Positions 2,295-8,738 of a stretch of DNA of 64,000 bases are shown here, one piece after another. This DNA is from Robertkochia aurantiaca (GTDB lineage Bacteria > Bacteroidota > Bacteroidia > Flavobacteriales > Flavobacteriaceae), in contig NZ_JAINZS010000004.1 of assembly GCF_020166495.1 (NCBI RefSeq), positions 434,001-498,000 on the forward strand. Direction: 5' to 3'. Position numbers and translations under genes: made by a program. Each line of letters begins with the position of its first letter. Position 1 is the first letter of the stretch. Under the pieces are notes generated by a model. It ran no database searches and was not told where the DNA came from. It saw only the letters and a program-made list of their open reading frames with translations.

Positions 2295-3152
2295 CTAAAC
2301 AAGGTTTGCGTGGGTGTTCCTAATAGCCTTTTCATTTTTATAATCGATCCATCGCTGTCCGTGCCACCTTCTCATCAGCACATCAAAATACCGCATAAAA
2401 ACCACGTTATAAGCCGCTTTACACAGGTGCTTAGGCGAACGGGGAAAAGCACGAAGGCTCATTGAAAACCCCGCAGTTTCATATTTCATGAAGTGCCAGT
2501 AACCTTCGGGCATATAAAGCATGTCTCCATGCTCCAGTTCGGCCACATATCCCTTCGCATGTTTTAGTGCGGGCCACCGATCAAGATCCGGTGATTCGAA
2601 ATTTATATCCTCACGTGAAATCAGTGAATGAGGTACCTTATAAAGAAATGGCGTCTGGCTGGGGGGAAATATGATACACTTCTTCCTGCCATGGAAGTGA
2701 AAATGCAGTATGTTCGAATAATCGATATCATAATGCATGAATACCTTACTGCCTTCTCCTCCAAAGAACAACATCGGCAACTGCTTGACCAGTTTAAGCC
2801 CCAGATCAGGCCAATTAAAATCATGCTGTAGTTCAGGAACTTCCCTGAGGAGATTGAACAGAAAAATGCGGTAGTTGGTAGGCCCCTCCTTCAACAGCTC
2901 GAGATAATCTTTAAAGAGCATGCGTTTATGAGGCTCATTAAATCCATCTTCATGCGAAACAGGTCGGTCATCATATAGAGGGACCTCCTTTTGACCTGCC
3001 ACCTCTTTAAAATGATCCAGATTCCATTTAGAGTAAGCAGGCCAGTCTTCAGTCATTCCACTCATTACAACAGGCCTTTGATCCCTGATATAATGCTGAT
3101 GGAATTCATCCTTATCAGCCCGGTCGATTCGTGTGACTTGAGTAAGTTGCAT
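2295..3152 (-). CDS. JmjC/cupin-like domain protein
   Basis: A 285-residue protein of the Cupin_8 (JmjC-like) family. N-terminal RDQRPVVMSGMTEDWPA is the usual family entry. A candidate iron-binding triad is visible: H140 and D142 in FMHYDIDY, and H220 in MPEGYWHFMKY. LHFHFHGRKKCIIFPP is the conserved strand before the second half of the barrel. Relatives are Fe(II)/2-oxoglutarate hydroxylases acting on proteins or small molecules; the substrate here cannot be inferred. It sits 51 bases downstream of bioB on the same strand, so it may be cotranscribed, but I see no functional link to biotin. Confidence 0.8.
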   Translation of the reverse strand: MQLTQVTRIDRADKDEFHQHYIRDQRPVVMSGMTEDWPAYSKWNLDHFKEVAGQKEVPLYDDRPVSHEDGFNEPHKRMLFKDYLELLKEGPTNYRIFLFNLLREVPELQHDFNWPDLGLKLVKQLPMLFFGGEGSKVFMHYDIDYSNILHFHFHGRKKCIIFPPSQTPFLYKVPHSLISREDINFESPDLDRWPALKHAKGYVAELEHGDMLYMPEGYWHFMKYETAGFSMSLRAFPRSPKHLCKAAYNVVFMRYFDVLMRRWHGQRWIDYKNEKAIRNTHANLV

Positions 3153-3203: not shown

Positions 3204-4286
3204 TTATTTTCGTGATCTGGCATTTTCGTTTCTTTCGATCTTATGACCGGGTCGACTCCAGCGCGGCTTTTCTCCCAAAGGCTGGTATTGAGATGCCTCA
3301 GCTTCGACGGTCTCCGGTTTCATTTTTTTGATAAAAGGCTTCTGAGGGTTGAGCCCCAACAGCTTGAACATTTCCATATCTTCGTTGACATCCGGGTTCG
3401 GGGTGGTAAGGAGTTTATCTCCAGCGAAAATAGAATTCGCACCAGCGAAAAAACAAAGTGCCTGTCCCTCGCGACTCATACCTGTACGACCGGCAGACAG
3501 CCTGACCTGTGTTTCAGGCATGACGATCCGGGTGGTAGCGACCATTCTCACCATTTCCCATATCTCTACCGGTTTCTCCTCAGCCATGGGAGTTCCCTCG
3601 ACTGCCACCAATGCATTGATCGGCACTGATTCAGGCTGCGGATTCAGAGAAGCCAGAGCAACGAGCATTCCGGCACGGTCTTCAACCTTCTCTCCCATTC
3701 CTATGATTCCCCCGCTGCAAACCGTTACATTGGTCTTTCGAACGTTATCTATGGTCTGTAACCTGTCTTCATAACCCCTGGTAGATATCACTTCCTTATA
3801 ATATTCTTCTGAGGTATCAAGGTTGTGATTGTATGCATAAAGTCCTGCCTCAGCGAGACGCTTTGCCTGGTTCTCTGTGATCATTCCCAGCGTACAACAA
3901 ACCTCCATATCAAGTTTATTGATGGTTCTTACCATTTCCAGGACCTGGTCGAATTCAGGGCCGTCTTTGACGTTTCTCCAGGCTGCTCCCATACAAACCC
4001 TGGAACTCCCAGAAGATTTGGCGCGCAGAGCCTGTGCCTTCACCTGTTGCACACTCATCAGATCATTCCCCTCAACATCTGTGTGATAGCGAGCGGCCTG
4101 AGGGCAGTACCCGCAATCTTCCGGACACCCGCCGGTCTTTATTGAAAGAAGGGTTGAAACCTGAACGGTATTAGGGTCGTGAAATTGTCTGTGAACAGTA
4201 GCTGCTTCGTACAGCAATTCCATGATCGGTTTATTATAGATTTCGAGAATTTCCTCTTTTGTCCAATTGTGTCTGATTTCGCTCAT
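3204..4286 (-). CDS. bioB: Biotin synthase
   Basis: A 360-residue radical SAM enzyme that inserts sulfur into dethiobiotin, the last step of biotin synthesis. The CxxxCxxC cluster motif is C54, C58 and C61 in GGCPEDCGYC. YNHNLDTS, GGIIGMGE and VRLSAGR are further BioB signatures, the arginine of the last being in the position of the [2Fe-2S] ligand. The C-terminus carries about 40 basic residues-rich positions beyond the barrel (GHKIERNENARSRK), longer than E. coli BioB (346). The gene is 128 bases away from the ketoacyl synthase stop and has its own promoter-like element, unlike the rest of the cluster. Confidence 0.97.
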   Translation of the reverse strand: MSEIRHNWTKEEILEIYNKPIMELLYEAATVHRQFHDPNTVQVSTLLSIKTGGCPEDCGYCPQAARYHTDVEGNDLMSVQQVKAQALRAKSSGSSRVCMGAAWRNVKDGPEFDQVLEMVRTINKLDMEVCCTLGMITENQAKRLAEAGLYAYNHNLDTSEEYYKEVISTRGYEDRLQTIDNVRKTNVTVCSGGIIGMGEKVEDRAGMLVALASLNPQPESVPINALVAVEGTPMAEEKPVEIWEMVRMVATTRIVMPETQVRLSAGRTGMSREGQALCFFAGANSIFAGDKLLTTPNPDVNEDMEMFKLLGLNPQKPFIKKMKPETVEAEASQYQPLGEKPRWSRPGHKIERNENARSRK

Positions 4287-4414: not shown

Positions 4415-5581
4415 TCAATCTCTTCCGATGAGTACACTAACCGCATTCCCTCCAAAACCCACAGCATTCACCATGATATACTCCAGTTTTTCAGGATTTT
4501 TTTTAGCTGAAACGAAAGGAACGGCAATGAATTCCTGATTTTGCAGCATCAATACCCCCAGTTCGAGACTCAGGCTGCCGGAGGCACCGAAGGTATGGCC
4601 CAGCTTCCACTTATTGGTTGTCAGAGCCGGATGGTGGTCGCCGAAAACCTTGCGAATAGCCGCCATTTCGGCCAGATCACCTTTGATGGTACCCGGAGCA
4701 TGCATCACCACGGCATCAACCTTATCTGGTGAAAGGTCACCAAGAGCCATTTTCATGGAACGCTGAAAACAATCGGCCTCCGCAGAGATCGAAATATTGT
4801 GTTTAAGAGACTCTGTAGCATAACCCACTCCTGCTATCCTGGCCAGTTTTTTCCCCTTTCCGGGATTGGTCTCGATCGCGATCACCGAAGCTCCCTCACC
4901 CAGCACCATACCATTTCTCTTCTTAAAAGGATCTCCTGCTCTTGAAGGGAAGTGGCTTTCTGCTGCATCTGCATAGATCTTCAAGGCTTTCATCTGAGCA
5001 AGGGTGAATCCGGTCAAAGCGGCCTCACTTCCCCCTACCAGGAATTTGGAGGTCATCCCACTTCTCAACCAGGCAACGCCGTTGATCAATGCATGCAGGG
5101 CTGTCGAACAGGTAATGGAATGGGAAATCTCGGGCCCCCTGGTTTTAAGATCCTGAGCGATCCAAGACGAAAGATTCCCCAAAGTAGTGGTTGGTGAAGC
5201 CAGGGTGGCACATCTGCCTTCCTTTCGGTAATGATCGTAATGCTGTTCGAATAACTGTGTCGCACCACGAGATGAACCGATATTGATTCCAAAATCATCC
5301 CCGGCCTTCCACCCGGCATTTTCGACCGCTTTACGGGCAGCAATAATACCCAGCAAGACACTTTTATCGAGATCAGCATACCGGGAATCTTCATTTCTGA
5401 GAGCATCCAGCTGTTGTTGATCTGATTCAGTAAGCCCGGCAATCCATTCTTTCCGATTATCGACCTTCACCGAACTGAGATAATGCTTGTCATCCCGGTA
5501 AGCTTTCCATATGGCATCTGTGTCTGATCCCAAAGGAGAAACACTTCCCATGGAGGAAATAAATATTTCTGTATCAATCAT
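4415..5581 (-). CDS. Beta-ketoacyl synthase in the biotin operon
   Basis: A 388-residue thiolase-fold condensing enzyme of the FabB/FabF type. The triad appears complete: C158 in SITCSTALHA, H294 in VVMHAPGT and H329 in WKLGHTFGASG; NAVGFGGNAVSVL is the usual C-terminal glycine-rich end. It overlaps the bioA stop by four bases, so it is locked into the bioF-bioD-bioA unit. Known biotin-linked condensing enzymes such as BioZ are KAS III-like; this is not. I infer a role in building the pimeloyl (C7 diacid) precursor that BioF needs, since no bioC, bioH-type esterase, bioW or bioI lies nearby, but such genes could be elsewhere. The enzyme class is sure; the role is a hypothesis. Confidence 0.88.
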   Translation of the reverse strand: MIDTEIFISSMGSVSPLGSDTDAIWKAYRDDKHYLSSVKVDNRKEWIAGLTESDQQQLDALRNEDSRYADLDKSVLLGIIAARKAVENAGWKAGDDFGINIGSSRGATQLFEQHYDHYRKEGRCATLASPTTTLGNLSSWIAQDLKTRGPEISHSITCSTALHALINGVAWLRSGMTSKFLVGGSEAALTGFTLAQMKALKIYADAAESHFPSRAGDPFKKRNGMVLGEGASVIAIETNPGKGKKLARIAGVGYATESLKHNISISAEADCFQRSMKMALGDLSPDKVDAVVMHAPGTIKGDLAEMAAIRKVFGDHHPALTTNKWKLGHTFGASGSLSLELGVLMLQNQEFIAVPFVSAKKNPEKLEYIMVNAVGFGGNAVSVLIGRD

Positions 5582-6891
5582 TCCCGGCTGGTATTAGCGG
5601 TAAATTCATCAAGATGATCCAAACAGTCTTTAATAACTGCATAGATCTTATCCATTTCTTCTTTTTCAATAATGTAGGGGGCGAGAATATAAATCGTCTT
5701 GCCCAGGGGGCGTAAAAAGACACCGCGATTCATAAAGAAGTGAAAAAGGCGGTCCCTGAACGATCCGTATCGCTCTATTTTGATGTCGATATCAAGAGCG
5801 AAAATGACTCCCTTGTTGCGAACTGATGCCACCCTGGGGTGTTCCCCGATCTCCCTTGCAAATTCTTCATGCCAGCCTGAGATCTCAGAAATACGTCGCT
5901 GAATCTCATCACTCTTCAAAAGCCTTACTCCTTCGAGCGCAGCTGTGCATGCCAGGGGGTTAGCGGTATATGTATGCCCGTGAAAGAATCCCTTGCTTAG
6001 CTCATCACTATAAAAGCCATCAAAGATCTCTTTTGTGGTGCTGGTAACCGCCATCGGCATGAGTCCGGCCGTCAGAGCCTTGCTCATGCAAATGATATCA
6101 GGCTTATTCTCAAGGTGATCTGAAGCAAAAAAAGTACCTGTCTTCCCAAATCCTGTCATCACCTCGTCGGCAATGGTGATAATGCCATGCGCGCGGCAGA
6201 AAGCGATAAGTGCATCAAGCCCCCGGGCATCGTGCATTTTCATGGCGGCTGCCCCCTGAACCAAAGGCTCAAAGATAAAGGCAGCAATATCATAGCTCCC
6301 TGCAAGCTCTCTCAACCTCTCCAGCACCTTCTCGTTATTATCTCCAACCGGAACAGGTAATCGCAGCACTTCCAGTCCCATGCCTGAAAAGGGCCCGTTG
6401 TAAACGTCTAATCCTGAAACAGACATGGCTCCAAAGGTATCACCGTGAAATCCCTCTTCAAAAGCCAGCAGTACCCGTCGCTTTTGCCCCTGATTGTGAT
6501 GATACTGTAAAGCGATTTTTACTCCCACCTCGACAGCCGTTGATCCATTATCAGAGAAAAAGAGCTTATCCTGGTTGTCAGGTAATACCGAGATCAGTTC
6601 TTCTGAAAGATTTACAGCAGGCTCGTGAGTAAAGCCACTAAAAACCACATGATCAAGCCTGGTCATTTGACGGGTGACGGCATCGGTAACCTGCGGATTA
6701 CAATGTCCGTACATTGCGGTATACCACGACGATATTCCGTCGATATAGCTTTTACCATTCTCGTCTGTGAGATACACTCCCTGTGCCTTAGTAATACCAA
6801 GGGCAGAACCATGCGTTTTATGCTGAGTGAGCGGATGCCAGATATGGCGACCATCCCGCTCTGAAAGCGATATTTCTTTCACTGTCTCCAT
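5578..6891 (-). CDS. bioA: Adenosylmethionine-8-amino-7-oxononanoate aminotransferase
   Basis: PLP-dependent class III aminotransferase making 7,8-diaminononanoate from the BioF product. Motifs: RHIWHPLTQHK at the N-terminus, GISSWYTAMYGH, FSDNGSTAVEVGVKIA, ADEVMTGFGKTG and the PLP-lysine segment MSKALTAGLMP, then HGHTYTANPLACTAAL. I place the start at the ATG at 6891 (437 residues) because it is preceded by a purine-rich AAGAAGAGAG and begins close to the conserved WHPLTQH. The frame stays open to an earlier ATG at 6942, seven bases after bioD, which would add 17 residues with no family likeness. It lies between bioD and the ketoacyl synthase in one unit. Confidence 0.95.
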   Translation of the reverse strand: METVKEISLSERDGRHIWHPLTQHKTHGSALGITKAQGVYLTDENGKSYIDGISSWYTAMYGHCNPQVTDAVTRQMTRLDHVVFSGFTHEPAVNLSEELISVLPDNQDKLFFSDNGSTAVEVGVKIALQYHHNQGQKRRVLLAFEEGFHGDTFGAMSVSGLDVYNGPFSGMGLEVLRLPVPVGDNNEKVLERLRELAGSYDIAAFIFEPLVQGAAAMKMHDARGLDALIAFCRAHGIITIADEVMTGFGKTGTFFASDHLENKPDIICMSKALTAGLMPMAVTSTTKEIFDGFYSDELSKGFFHGHTYTANPLACTAALEGVRLLKSDEIQRRISEISGWHEEFAREIGEHPRVASVRNKGVIFALDIDIKIERYGSFRDRLFHFFMNRGVFLRPLGKTIYILAPYIIEKEEMDKIYAVIKDCLDHLDEFTANTSRE

Positions 6892-6948
6892 CTCTCTTCT
6901 TTTGTTCGGGCAAAGATAAGGGCTCCCGTCGGGTTCTGCCAAGATTCT

Positions 6949-7584
6949 TCAGGCAAGTTCTAAGAGATTCATGAGGGCCGGTCTGAACTCATCAGCATAT
7001 TTGCTGATGATGCTCGGAGTAAACTCCCTTTCTTCTGCGATACGTCCCAGCATCCGGCACTTACTCATCTTCAGAATGGCCTCTTCTGTTGTTGGGTGCG
7101 GTTCTCCACTAAAAATGATCAGCGGATCAAAGCCCCGTTCTTTAAGGTATTTCAAAGTCAACAGTGAGTGATTGATACTGCCAAGATAATGCCTTGATAC
7201 CACCACCACTTCGTAATCCTGATCGATCATATCGGCAATGGTGTCGGTTTCATTCAATGGGACCAGAAGTCCGCCGGCTCCTTCTATCACCAGGTGATTG
7301 GTCGTTTCCGGCTCTATGATCTCTGACAAATCTATGGTAACACCGTCAATAGCCGCCGAAGCATGCGGGCTCATAGGCGTATTCAAGGCATAACTGTTCT
7401 TAAAAAATTCCGATTTTGAATTTGTGATCAGGGCCTTCACTTTATCGGTATCTGAATAATCGAGGTCACCAGACTGTATCGGTTTCCAGTAGTCAGCTTC
7501 CAGTGCTTCAACCAATATCGCTGAAGCAATGGTCTTCCCTACCTCAGTAGAAATACCGGTAACAAATATCTTTTTCCTTTTCAT
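6949..7584 (-). CDS. bioD: Dethiobiotin synthetase
   Basis: A 211-residue P-loop ATPase that closes the ureido ring of dethiobiotin from diaminononanoate, CO2 and ATP. The nucleotide loop is VTGISTEVGKT at residues about 8-18, YWKPIQSGD is the family lysine region, and VIEGAGGLLVPL is the second conserved block. Length is typical. It begins two bases after the bioF stop and is followed by bioA, so translation of the three is probably coupled. Confidence 0.95.
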   Translation of the reverse strand: MKRKKIFVTGISTEVGKTIASAILVEALEADYWKPIQSGDLDYSDTDKVKALITNSKSEFFKNSYALNTPMSPHASAAIDGVTIDLSEIIEPETTNHLVIEGAGGLLVPLNETDTIADMIDQDYEVVVVSRHYLGSINHSLLTLKYLKERGFDPLIIFSGEPHPTTEEAILKMSKCRMLGRIAEEREFTPSIISKYADEFRPALMNLLELA

Positions 7585-7586
7585 GC

Positions 7587-8738
7587 TTAAAGGTGTTGTT
7601 CTAAAGTTTTAATAAGTGATTTGATCTCGTTTTCATCATTATAGGTATGCAGACAAATTCTCAGACGCTCTTTTCCACGAGGCACAGTCGGCGACAAGAT
7701 CGCTTTGACATCTAAACCTTCTTTAAATAACTCAGCAGAAATCTTCTTTACCTGATCATTGCCGGACACTACCAGGCAATGTATGGCAGAATGACTTTCA
7801 ATAGCACAAGACGACACCTGACTGCCGAAAAGTGTTTTTCTGAAGAGCCCGATCTGCTCCTTTATTTTTTTAGTCGCTACACCTGATAACAGCTTTTGAT
7901 GGGCAGCAATTACAGTGGCAATCGTATGAGGCGGAAGAGCGGTGGTATAAATAAGACTGCGGGAAAAATTCACCAGATAATCGGTTAGCTCCCGGCTTCC
8001 TAAAACGGCAGCTCCGTTACCACCCAAGGCTTTGCCAAAGGTAATCACCCGAGCAAAAACCTCTCCTTCCAGTCCTTTTTCAACGACCAGCCCTTCACCC
8101 TTTTTTCCATGAATTCCTACTGCGTGTGCCTCATCAACTATGAGGCGGGCACCGTATTCAGCACACAATTCAGACATGACCCTAAGCTCAGGTGAATCTC
8201 CGTCCATGGAAAAAACCGATTCCGTGACCACATAGGTTTGCGAAGAAAATTCATCTGACGAAGCAGCATATCTGTTCAGCAGTCGCTTCAGATCCTGAAT
8301 ATCATTATGCCTGAATTTATAATTGCGGGCATGACAGAGTTTGATCCCCTCCCTGATAGAAGCATGGGCATACTCATCATAAAGAATCACATCATTTCTG
8401 TTCCCCAGGGCACTCAGAAGTCCGCTGTTAGCATCAAACCCTGAATTGAAGATCAGAGCCGACTCTGAAGAGTAATACCTGCCAAGCATTACTTCCGCCC
8501 TTTCATACAAGCTGTGATTCCCTGAAAGCAACCTTGATCCCGTACTGCCATTATATCGGGAGGATACATCCAGCACTAAATCACAGGCATTTTTGTAAAG
8601 TTCACGGTCACGGGCAAACCCGAGATAGTCATTGGATGAAAAATCTGCCACTTCGCTCTGCATACCGAGAGTTCTGAATGCTCCTTCCTCCCGACGGTCT
8701 TCAAGCATGGCAGTAAGTCTGGCAGGCAATTCTTTCAT
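7587..8738 (-). CDS. bioF: 8-amino-7-oxononanoate synthase
   Basis: A 383-residue PLP enzyme of the alpha-oxoamine synthase family, condensing pimeloyl-ACP or pimeloyl-CoA with alanine, the first committed step of biotin ring assembly. Motifs: DFSSNDYLGFA, YDEYAHASIREG, VDEAHAVGIHG and the PLP-lysine segment ITFGKALGGNGAAV. It is the first gene of the bioF-bioD-bioA-ketoacyl synthase unit. A TAnnTTTG box ends only four bases before its ATG, so the mRNA may have almost no leader. A close relative, 2-amino-3-ketobutyrate ligase, is excluded mainly by the operon. Confidence 0.93.
   Translation of the reverse strand: MKELPARLTAMLEDRREEGAFRTLGMQSEVADFSSNDYLGFARDRELYKNACDLVLDVSSRYNGSTGSRLLSGNHSLYERAEVMLGRYYSSESALIFNSGFDANSGLLSALGNRNDVILYDEYAHASIREGIKLCHARNYKFRHNDIQDLKRLLNRYAASSDEFSSQTYVVTESVFSMDGDSPELRVMSELCAEYGARLIVDEAHAVGIHGKKGEGLVVEKGLEGEVFARVITFGKALGGNGAAVLGSRELTDYLVNFSRSLIYTTALPPHTIATVIAAHQKLLSGVATKKIKEQIGLFRKTLFGSQVSSCAIESHSAIHCLVVSGNDQVKKISAELFKEGLDVKAILSPTVPRGKERLRICLHTYNDENEIKSLIKTLEQHL

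Follow-up and report, generated by a model that had tools for sequence, protein, structure and literature searches.

A FabF-related ketosynthase of the biotin operon as a candidate pimelate enzyme in Robertkochia aurantiaca and other Bacteroidota

The biotin operon of R. aurantiaca

We have analyzed a stretch of 64,000 nucleotides of the Robertkochia aurantiaca genome (the window), in which the genes for biotin synthesis lie on the minus strand in the order bioF-bioD-bioA-KAS-bioB, followed by a Cupin_8 gene. The KAS gene (4415..5581, minus strand, ATG start) codes for a KAS I/II-type beta-ketoacyl synthase of 388 aa, recognized by Pfam, structure and profile matches, that we propose as a condensing enzyme dedicated to pimelate. 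Its neighbors, all on the same strand, are bioB (3204..4286; TIGR00433, 403 bits versus a cut-off of 225), bioA (5578..6942; TIGR00508, 533 bits versus 405; the open reading frame begins at TTG 6942, with ATG 6891 as the likelier start), bioD (6949..7584; TIGR00347, 117.6 bits versus 83.3) and bioF (7587..8738). The first three pass their NCBIfam equivalog cut-offs, and bioF falls below its own (best match TIGR00858, 329 bits versus 426) and is named from this match and its position in the operon.

The stop codon of bioA (TGA) and the start codon of the KAS gene (ATG) share the bases ATGA at 5578..5581 of the minus strand (tcat on the plus strand). The overlap of four bases described in the initial annotation is therefore real, but the two genes are separate frames and cannot be called fused, as they had been there. 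No methyltransferase or esterase was found among the eight window genes scanned (RecX, Cupin_8, bioB, KAS, bioA, bioD, bioF and an M61 peptidase), in agreement with the earlier remark that neither bioC nor an esterase gene adjoins the KAS gene.

The Cupin_8/JmjC-like protein downstream of bioB (2295..3152, minus strand), identified by Pfam and by locus comparison, is a common neighbor of this gene. It was located near bioB in 31 of the 80 closest named loci (the best 80 of at least 564) and could be functionally connected with biotin or with BioB.

A separate clade of KAS I/II enzymes

The window KAS passes both ketoacyl synthase Pfam domains and is a member of the KAS I/II (FabB/FabF) superfamily, with its fold, the Cys-His-His triad, the Lys, the Asp and the GFGG loop. 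The AlphaFold model (mean pLDDT 87.8, pTM 0.91) had FabF structures as its best structural matches (1kas, TMq 0.88); the alignment used for the structure model included 41 of the 80 named rows plus the window protein. However, identity to E. coli FabF was 22.4% over the aligned columns, and the profile search against the FabF equivalog TIGR03150 gave 161 bits, so far below the cut-off of 493.75 that by this definition the protein is not FabF. A chance or artefactual open reading frame could be rejected because the frame is conserved, at 36–62% identity, in 31 relatives. Identity with BioZ, a KAS III, was discarded on the basis of the KAS I/II pair of Pfam domains and of the second histidine of the triad, H329.

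In the tree, a single branch with support 98/98 split the window KAS and 45 relatives from 15 other ketosynthases. The latter include E. coli FabF, the R. aurantiaca FabF adjoining acpP, and enzymes of the aryl-polyene and polyketide types that were typed from their gene context. This tree took in 10 of the 80 named rows; several rows in it are long and of unsure placement. The window KAS forms a separate clade, apart from FabF.

Linkage to biotin genes

We searched a sample of 60 genomes, that of R. aurantiaca included, for orthologs of the KAS. They were found in 32, at 231 bits or more, and the next match was at 112 bits. At least one bio gene was present in the stretch around the gene in 28 of the 32 carriers (the window and 27 of the 31 fetched loci), often in the order bioF-bioD-bioA-KAS-bioB. 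The four carriers with no bio gene in the stretch were L043, whose contig has bioB at a distance of about 16 kb, L062 (a contig of 11 kb), L067 and L069. A scan of contigs retrieved at least 564 relatives, of which the closest 80 were kept, hence with a bias to near kin. In this set (the best 80 of at least 564) a bio gene was located within about 7 kb of the KAS in 79 loci, and bioA in 76. The linkage to bio genes, whose conservation the initial annotation had singled out as a point to map, is found in both samples. Distant carriers from four other families (f19, f21, f23 and f41) had bio genes beside the KAS in all six loci.

The spacing between bioA and the KAS gene varied along the 76 loci, with 23 within 30 bases, 52 within 200 and five above 1000, taking bioA as the nearest labelled upstream gene and starts as the first ATG, GTG or TTG. 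The exact overlap of four bases appeared in one of the 76 close loci (L117) and is not a conserved feature. The same overlap was seen again in a distant family (L177:8162-8165, KAS 32% identical); given its single occurrence among the close loci, it may be due to chance or to repeated origin.

Some loci contain additional genes. A protein of about 125 aa, absent from the window, is encoded between bioF and bioD in L048:3096-3476, L050:3248-3625, L052:11214-11591, L060:4242-4619 and L183:10421-10801, and the L048 copy has a weak match to DUF2007, below the cut-off. A SET-domain protein is found between bioA and the KAS gene in L053:6649-7233 and L056:6891-7481 (by Pfam match in L056, L053 being alike by eye).

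Co-occurrence with bioB and with other pimelate routes

In the sample of 60 genomes bioB was over the cut-off in 35, namely all 32 KAS carriers plus G007, G040 and G053. None of the 25 genomes without bioB over the cut-off had the KAS, and FabF-like matches were still present in them. BioC was over the cut-off in one genome, G007 (the next best match was partial, with 86 bits). BioE was found in two, G040 and G053, each with a bioL-bioE-bioF-bioD-bioB-bioA cluster; the protein was named from this gene order and from six diiron ligands, shifted by two, that fall on invariant Glu and His residues of the two proteins, the six ligands being those given for the Elizabethkingia meningoseptica enzyme (PMC12915131). 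Therefore, the three bioB genomes of this sample that lack the KAS are exactly the BioC genome and the two BioE genomes. BioW was found in none of the 60, with the controls from Bacillus subtilis and Methanocaldococcus jannaschii detected.

We have examined the same pattern in a wider sample, made up of 392 Bacteroidota genomes with a completeness of 95% or more. In it, 35 carriers were identified by the KAS profile with 244 bits or more (the next had 165). bioB was over the cut-off in 173 genomes and BioE was detected in 14; with a threshold of E <= 1e-28 there were 102 genomes with BioC, and the curated cut-off was passed by 58 of these. All 35 carriers had bioB and bioD, and none had BioC or BioE; along the 392 genomes KAS, BioC and BioE were mutually non-overlapping. 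The P values of the association (4e-14 and 4e-17) ignore relatedness and are not to be taken as real probabilities. The family of R. aurantiaca contributed 48 genomes to this sample. Here bioD was present in the 29 KAS carriers and the single genome with BioE; the six genomes with bioB only and the 12 lacking bioB did not have it. Of the 30 genomes of the family in which bioB and bioD are both present, 29 have neither BioC nor BioE at the thresholds used, and the KAS is found in all 29.

If a known route elsewhere in the genome made pimelate, the KAS could be an accessory. In favor of this, the R. aurantiaca genome does have five KAS III-like genes. However, the search for bioC, bioW and bioZ-type genes that had been suggested with the initial annotation, here covering BioC, BioE, BioW and BioZ-like KAS III, gave for BioC a best model match that was partial and of 59 bits against a cut-off of 184.95, and no match for BioE or BioW. 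At the columns of S83 and R146 of Mesorhizobium BioZ, none of the five KAS III had Ser or Arg. We equate these two columns with the S84 and R147 described for BioZ, assuming an offset of one residue between the Agrobacterium and Mesorhizobium numberings, so the result is moderate evidence against a BioZ among the five. At the column of S287 some of the five do have Ser, and one has an Arg one column off. Altogether we regard a known route of this kind, with an accessory KAS, as very unlikely.

Genomes with bioB that lack KAS, BioC and BioE

In the wider sample, 36 of the 173 bioB genomes had none of the three genes, indicating that the phylum also uses other routes or salvage. The family of R. 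aurantiaca accounts for six of these 36. In the fetched stretch they have bioB without bioF, bioA or bioD, and bioD gave no match in them at E <= 1e-10. For these reasons they fit the salvage of desthiobiotin (PMC9561691) and are not counter-examples. Eight others were checked for bioD, which was present in G066, G148, G182, G201, G303, G307 and G409 and absent in G244. Besides, G178 (L197) and G219 (L203) have whole clusters of bioB, bioF, bioD and bioA without the KAS. Genomes with bioB and bioD that lack KAS, BioC and BioE imply at least one further early route, or diverged versions of BioC or BioE below the thresholds. Those seven bioD-positive genomes, together with G178 and G219, may harbor a further pimelate route in Bacteroidota.

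One such case can be tentatively named. In G130, also one of the 36, a KAS III 41% identical to Mesorhizobium BioZ (L201:3896-4885) overlaps bioA by ten bases, and judging from this similarity it likely represents a BioZ route in a Bacteroidota genome without the KAS.

Two genomes stand out for a BioL-like gene. In G430 (L191), from the family of R. aurantiaca, BioE is present and the BioL-like gene adjoins bioB. G436 (L190) has the BioL-like gene and bioB, but neither bioD nor BioE was matched in it, as though the regulator had outlived a lost BioE route.

Active site and acyl pocket

The residues C158, H294, H329, K324 and D302 and the GFGG loop of the window KAS align with C163, H303, H340, K335, D311 and 399-402 of E. 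coli FabF, and the triad C158, H294, H329 is thus as complete as first noted (the nucleophile is encoded by TGT at 5108..5110, minus strand). Along 114 distinct KAS sequences Cys158, His294, His329, Lys324, Asp302 and Phe376 were invariant. These counts of residues omit L048 and L057, which have long N-termini.

The acyl pocket is different. In FabF, Ile108 and Phe202 have been named as gating residues of this pocket (PMC7138838), and the I108F change in Bacillus subtilis FabF places the residue inside it (PMC3996569). This pair was not found in the KAS clade (114 distinct rows). At the place of Ile108 (mature E. coli numbering) all 114 sequences have an arginine, Arg105 in the window (codon CGT, 5267..5269, minus strand), and Phe202 is replaced by Met in 106. 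Alignment with phmmer, hmmsearch or MAFFT left no gap in this column, and in an alignment of 32 rows that did include L048 and L057 the Arg appeared in all 32. None of the 15 other ketosynthases has Arg there; in them the residue is I, V, L, S or K. The sequence patterns that retrieved the named loci exclude the position of Arg105. By alignment, then, Arg105 would be placed in the acyl pocket of the KAS.

Other replacements accompany it. Val134 of FabF is Ser and Ile138 is Thr in all 114 sequences, Ala162 is Thr in 112, Gly198 is Thr in 113 and Gly201 is Gln in 113, all of them positions that in FabF structures lie in or near the pocket. Of 116 rows, 115 have Pro at the place of Thr305 and all have Asn at that of Thr403. 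Regarding the positions that contact AcpP, K65, K69 and R127 are mostly lost, and R68, K128 and R206 are mostly still Lys or Arg.

A second housekeeping FabF or FabB, whose expression would be merely tied to the supply of biotin (which limits the formation of malonyl-CoA), would explain the conservation of the triad, the Lys, the Asp and the Phe gate. Against it, a normal acpP-fabF pair is already present elsewhere in the genome (L091), the 25 genomes lacking bioB do without the KAS and keep their FabF-like matches, and the arginine in the acyl pocket is invariant. We find such a role most improbable, and an ordinary copy of FabF is ruled out by the score, the tree, the pocket and the co-occurrence.

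A proposed role in pimelate synthesis

The linkage to bio genes, the co-occurrence with bioB, the exclusivity with respect to BioC and BioE, the residues of the pocket and the support of the clade all argue for a dedicated, FabF-related ketosynthase. Judging from these genomic patterns, we consider it probable that this enzyme elongates a starter with a free carboxylate (malonyl or glutaryl) towards pimeloyl-ACP and so replaces BioC/BioH, BioZ or BioE. The initial annotation had suggested a separate way to build the pimelate chain. This part of it is supported by the linkage, by a distribution that tracks complete biotin synthesis and by the absence of BioC, BioE and BioW, but its premise, that no FabF-type pimelate enzyme was known, is not, since Desulfovibrio vulgaris has such a candidate in DVU2563 (PMC10102598).

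Pimelate can in principle be made from three malonates, and the hydrophobic pockets of ketosynthases should reject the free carboxyl, which is the reason given for the methyl ester mask of E. coli (PMC7645780). In the KAS, a dicarboxylic starter would sit on Cys158 with its free carboxylate held by Arg105 together with the Ser and Thr at the places of Val134 and Ile138, and the enzyme would condense this starter with malonyl-ACP. Reduction by the FabG, FabZ and enoyl reductase of general fatty-acid synthesis would then take the chain to pimeloyl-ACP (or it might be passed to CoA) for use by BioF. With a ketosynthase that tolerates the carboxylate, the methyl ester of BioC/BioH would not be needed.

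The starter of first choice would be malonyl-ACP, with two rounds from C3 to C5 and C7. The second choice, a case within the same general proposal, would be a glutaryl thioester, as glutaryl-CoA or glutaryl-ACP derived for example from lysine breakdown, that would require a single round as in BioZ. KAS I/II enzymes usually take ACP-bound starters, and no gene forming glutaryl was seen in the clusters (by eye, BLAST having been run with biotin genes only), and for these two reasons we rank malonyl before glutaryl. In favor of the latter, BioZ, although a KAS III, performs glutaryl chemistry in alpha-proteobacteria (PMC8024396). The Mesorhizobium operon bioB-bioF-bioD-bioA-KAS III has its ketosynthase behind bioA, as in the window. 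A starter of five carbons might also be suited by an Arg at position 108 of FabF, which is a guess based on FabF structures. The genomic data are compatible with both starters alike, and we see the glutaryl version as plausible and rather unlikely.

A dedicated ketosynthase working on malonyl could go further, and the KAS alone might realize the old proposal of three malonates, with an unprotected malonyl gripped by Arg105, both condensations carried out by this one enzyme and the remaining steps left to the general fatty-acid enzymes, a scheme that would apply to several families of Bacteroidota. This we put forward tentatively, as slightly less likely than not.

Most Flavobacteriia have the last four genes of biotin synthesis (PMC9561691). 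Within the literature examined, their first step has thus had no assigned enzyme outside BioE. If the proposal is true, one gene would fill this missing step, and the KAS would answer the objection that hydrophobic ketosynthase pockets bar a free carboxyl (PMC7645780). The reading also yields a prediction on a single residue, Arg105.

Comparison with known systems

The nearest known situation is that of D. vulgaris, where DVU2563, a ketosynthase annotated as FabF, is found in the biotin cluster DVU2558-2565, whose genes are important for growth without biotin (PMC10102598). As described there, a FabF-type KAS also lies within a bioF/A/D/B cluster with no bioC or bioH, and an elongation of malonyl-ACP free of esters has been proposed (PMC10102598). 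A FabF-type KAS linked to bio genes without bioC, the mark of this Desulfovibrio type, is what we have found in the flavobacterial loci. However, the D. vulgaris cluster also encodes an ACP of its own along with FabZ-like proteins and a putative oxoacyl-ACP reductase (PMC10102598), whereas the flavobacterial KAS stands alone as far as the following queries reach. The 80 loci were compared by BLAST with AcpP, FabG, FabD, FabH, one BioC and a pair of genes from a polyketide-type cluster of R. aurantiaca. An ACP was found in one (L108, the only locus without bio genes) and a FabG-like protein in another (L158), and FabD, FabH, BioC and the two polyketide-type genes had no match in the open reading frames. 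The comparison of DVU2563 with the flavobacterial KAS is one of description and gene context. Flavobacteria are mostly aerobes. Carriers of the D. vulgaris type, on the other hand, are anaerobes of few phyla (Desulfobacterota, Chrysiogenetes) (PMC10102598). In a plasmid collection, the best 40 of 614 records matched by tblastn with the KAS were 27.5–29.3% identical and carried annotations of FabF or unspecific ketosynthases.

The BioE-BioL pathway of Elizabethkingia and Chryseobacterium, with BioE also in some Flavobacteriaceae, is likewise an alternative early step within the same order (PMC12915131). BioE, a diiron oxygenase, nevertheless works by cleavage of long acyl chains, and it did not overlap with the KAS carriers in the 60 or in the 392 genomes. 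With E. coli FabF the KAS has in common the fold, the Cys-His-His triad and the equivalents of Lys335, Asp311 and Phe400, and differs from it in the Arg and the polar residues of the acyl pocket, in the change of Thr305 to Pro and in the loss of some of the AcpP contacts.

BioZ, as the KAS of the window, is encoded behind bioA and bypasses BioC/BioH, and the S84, R147 and S287 at the end of its tunnel have been proposed to neutralize the carboxylate, the product being finished by the fatty-acid synthesis system (PMC8024396). The difference is that BioZ is a KAS III with a Cys-His-Asn triad, while the window KAS belongs to the Cys-His-His class of FabB and FabF (PMC7645780). By analogy, an Arg-bearing KAS I/II enzyme, alone in its operon, would fit as a further solution of the BioZ-type logic. 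We found no description of this KAS in the biotin operons of Bacteroidota in the open-licence literature. A FabF-type KAS in a biotin cluster was already known from D. vulgaris, and it is the stand-alone form of Bacteroidota that is new within that literature.
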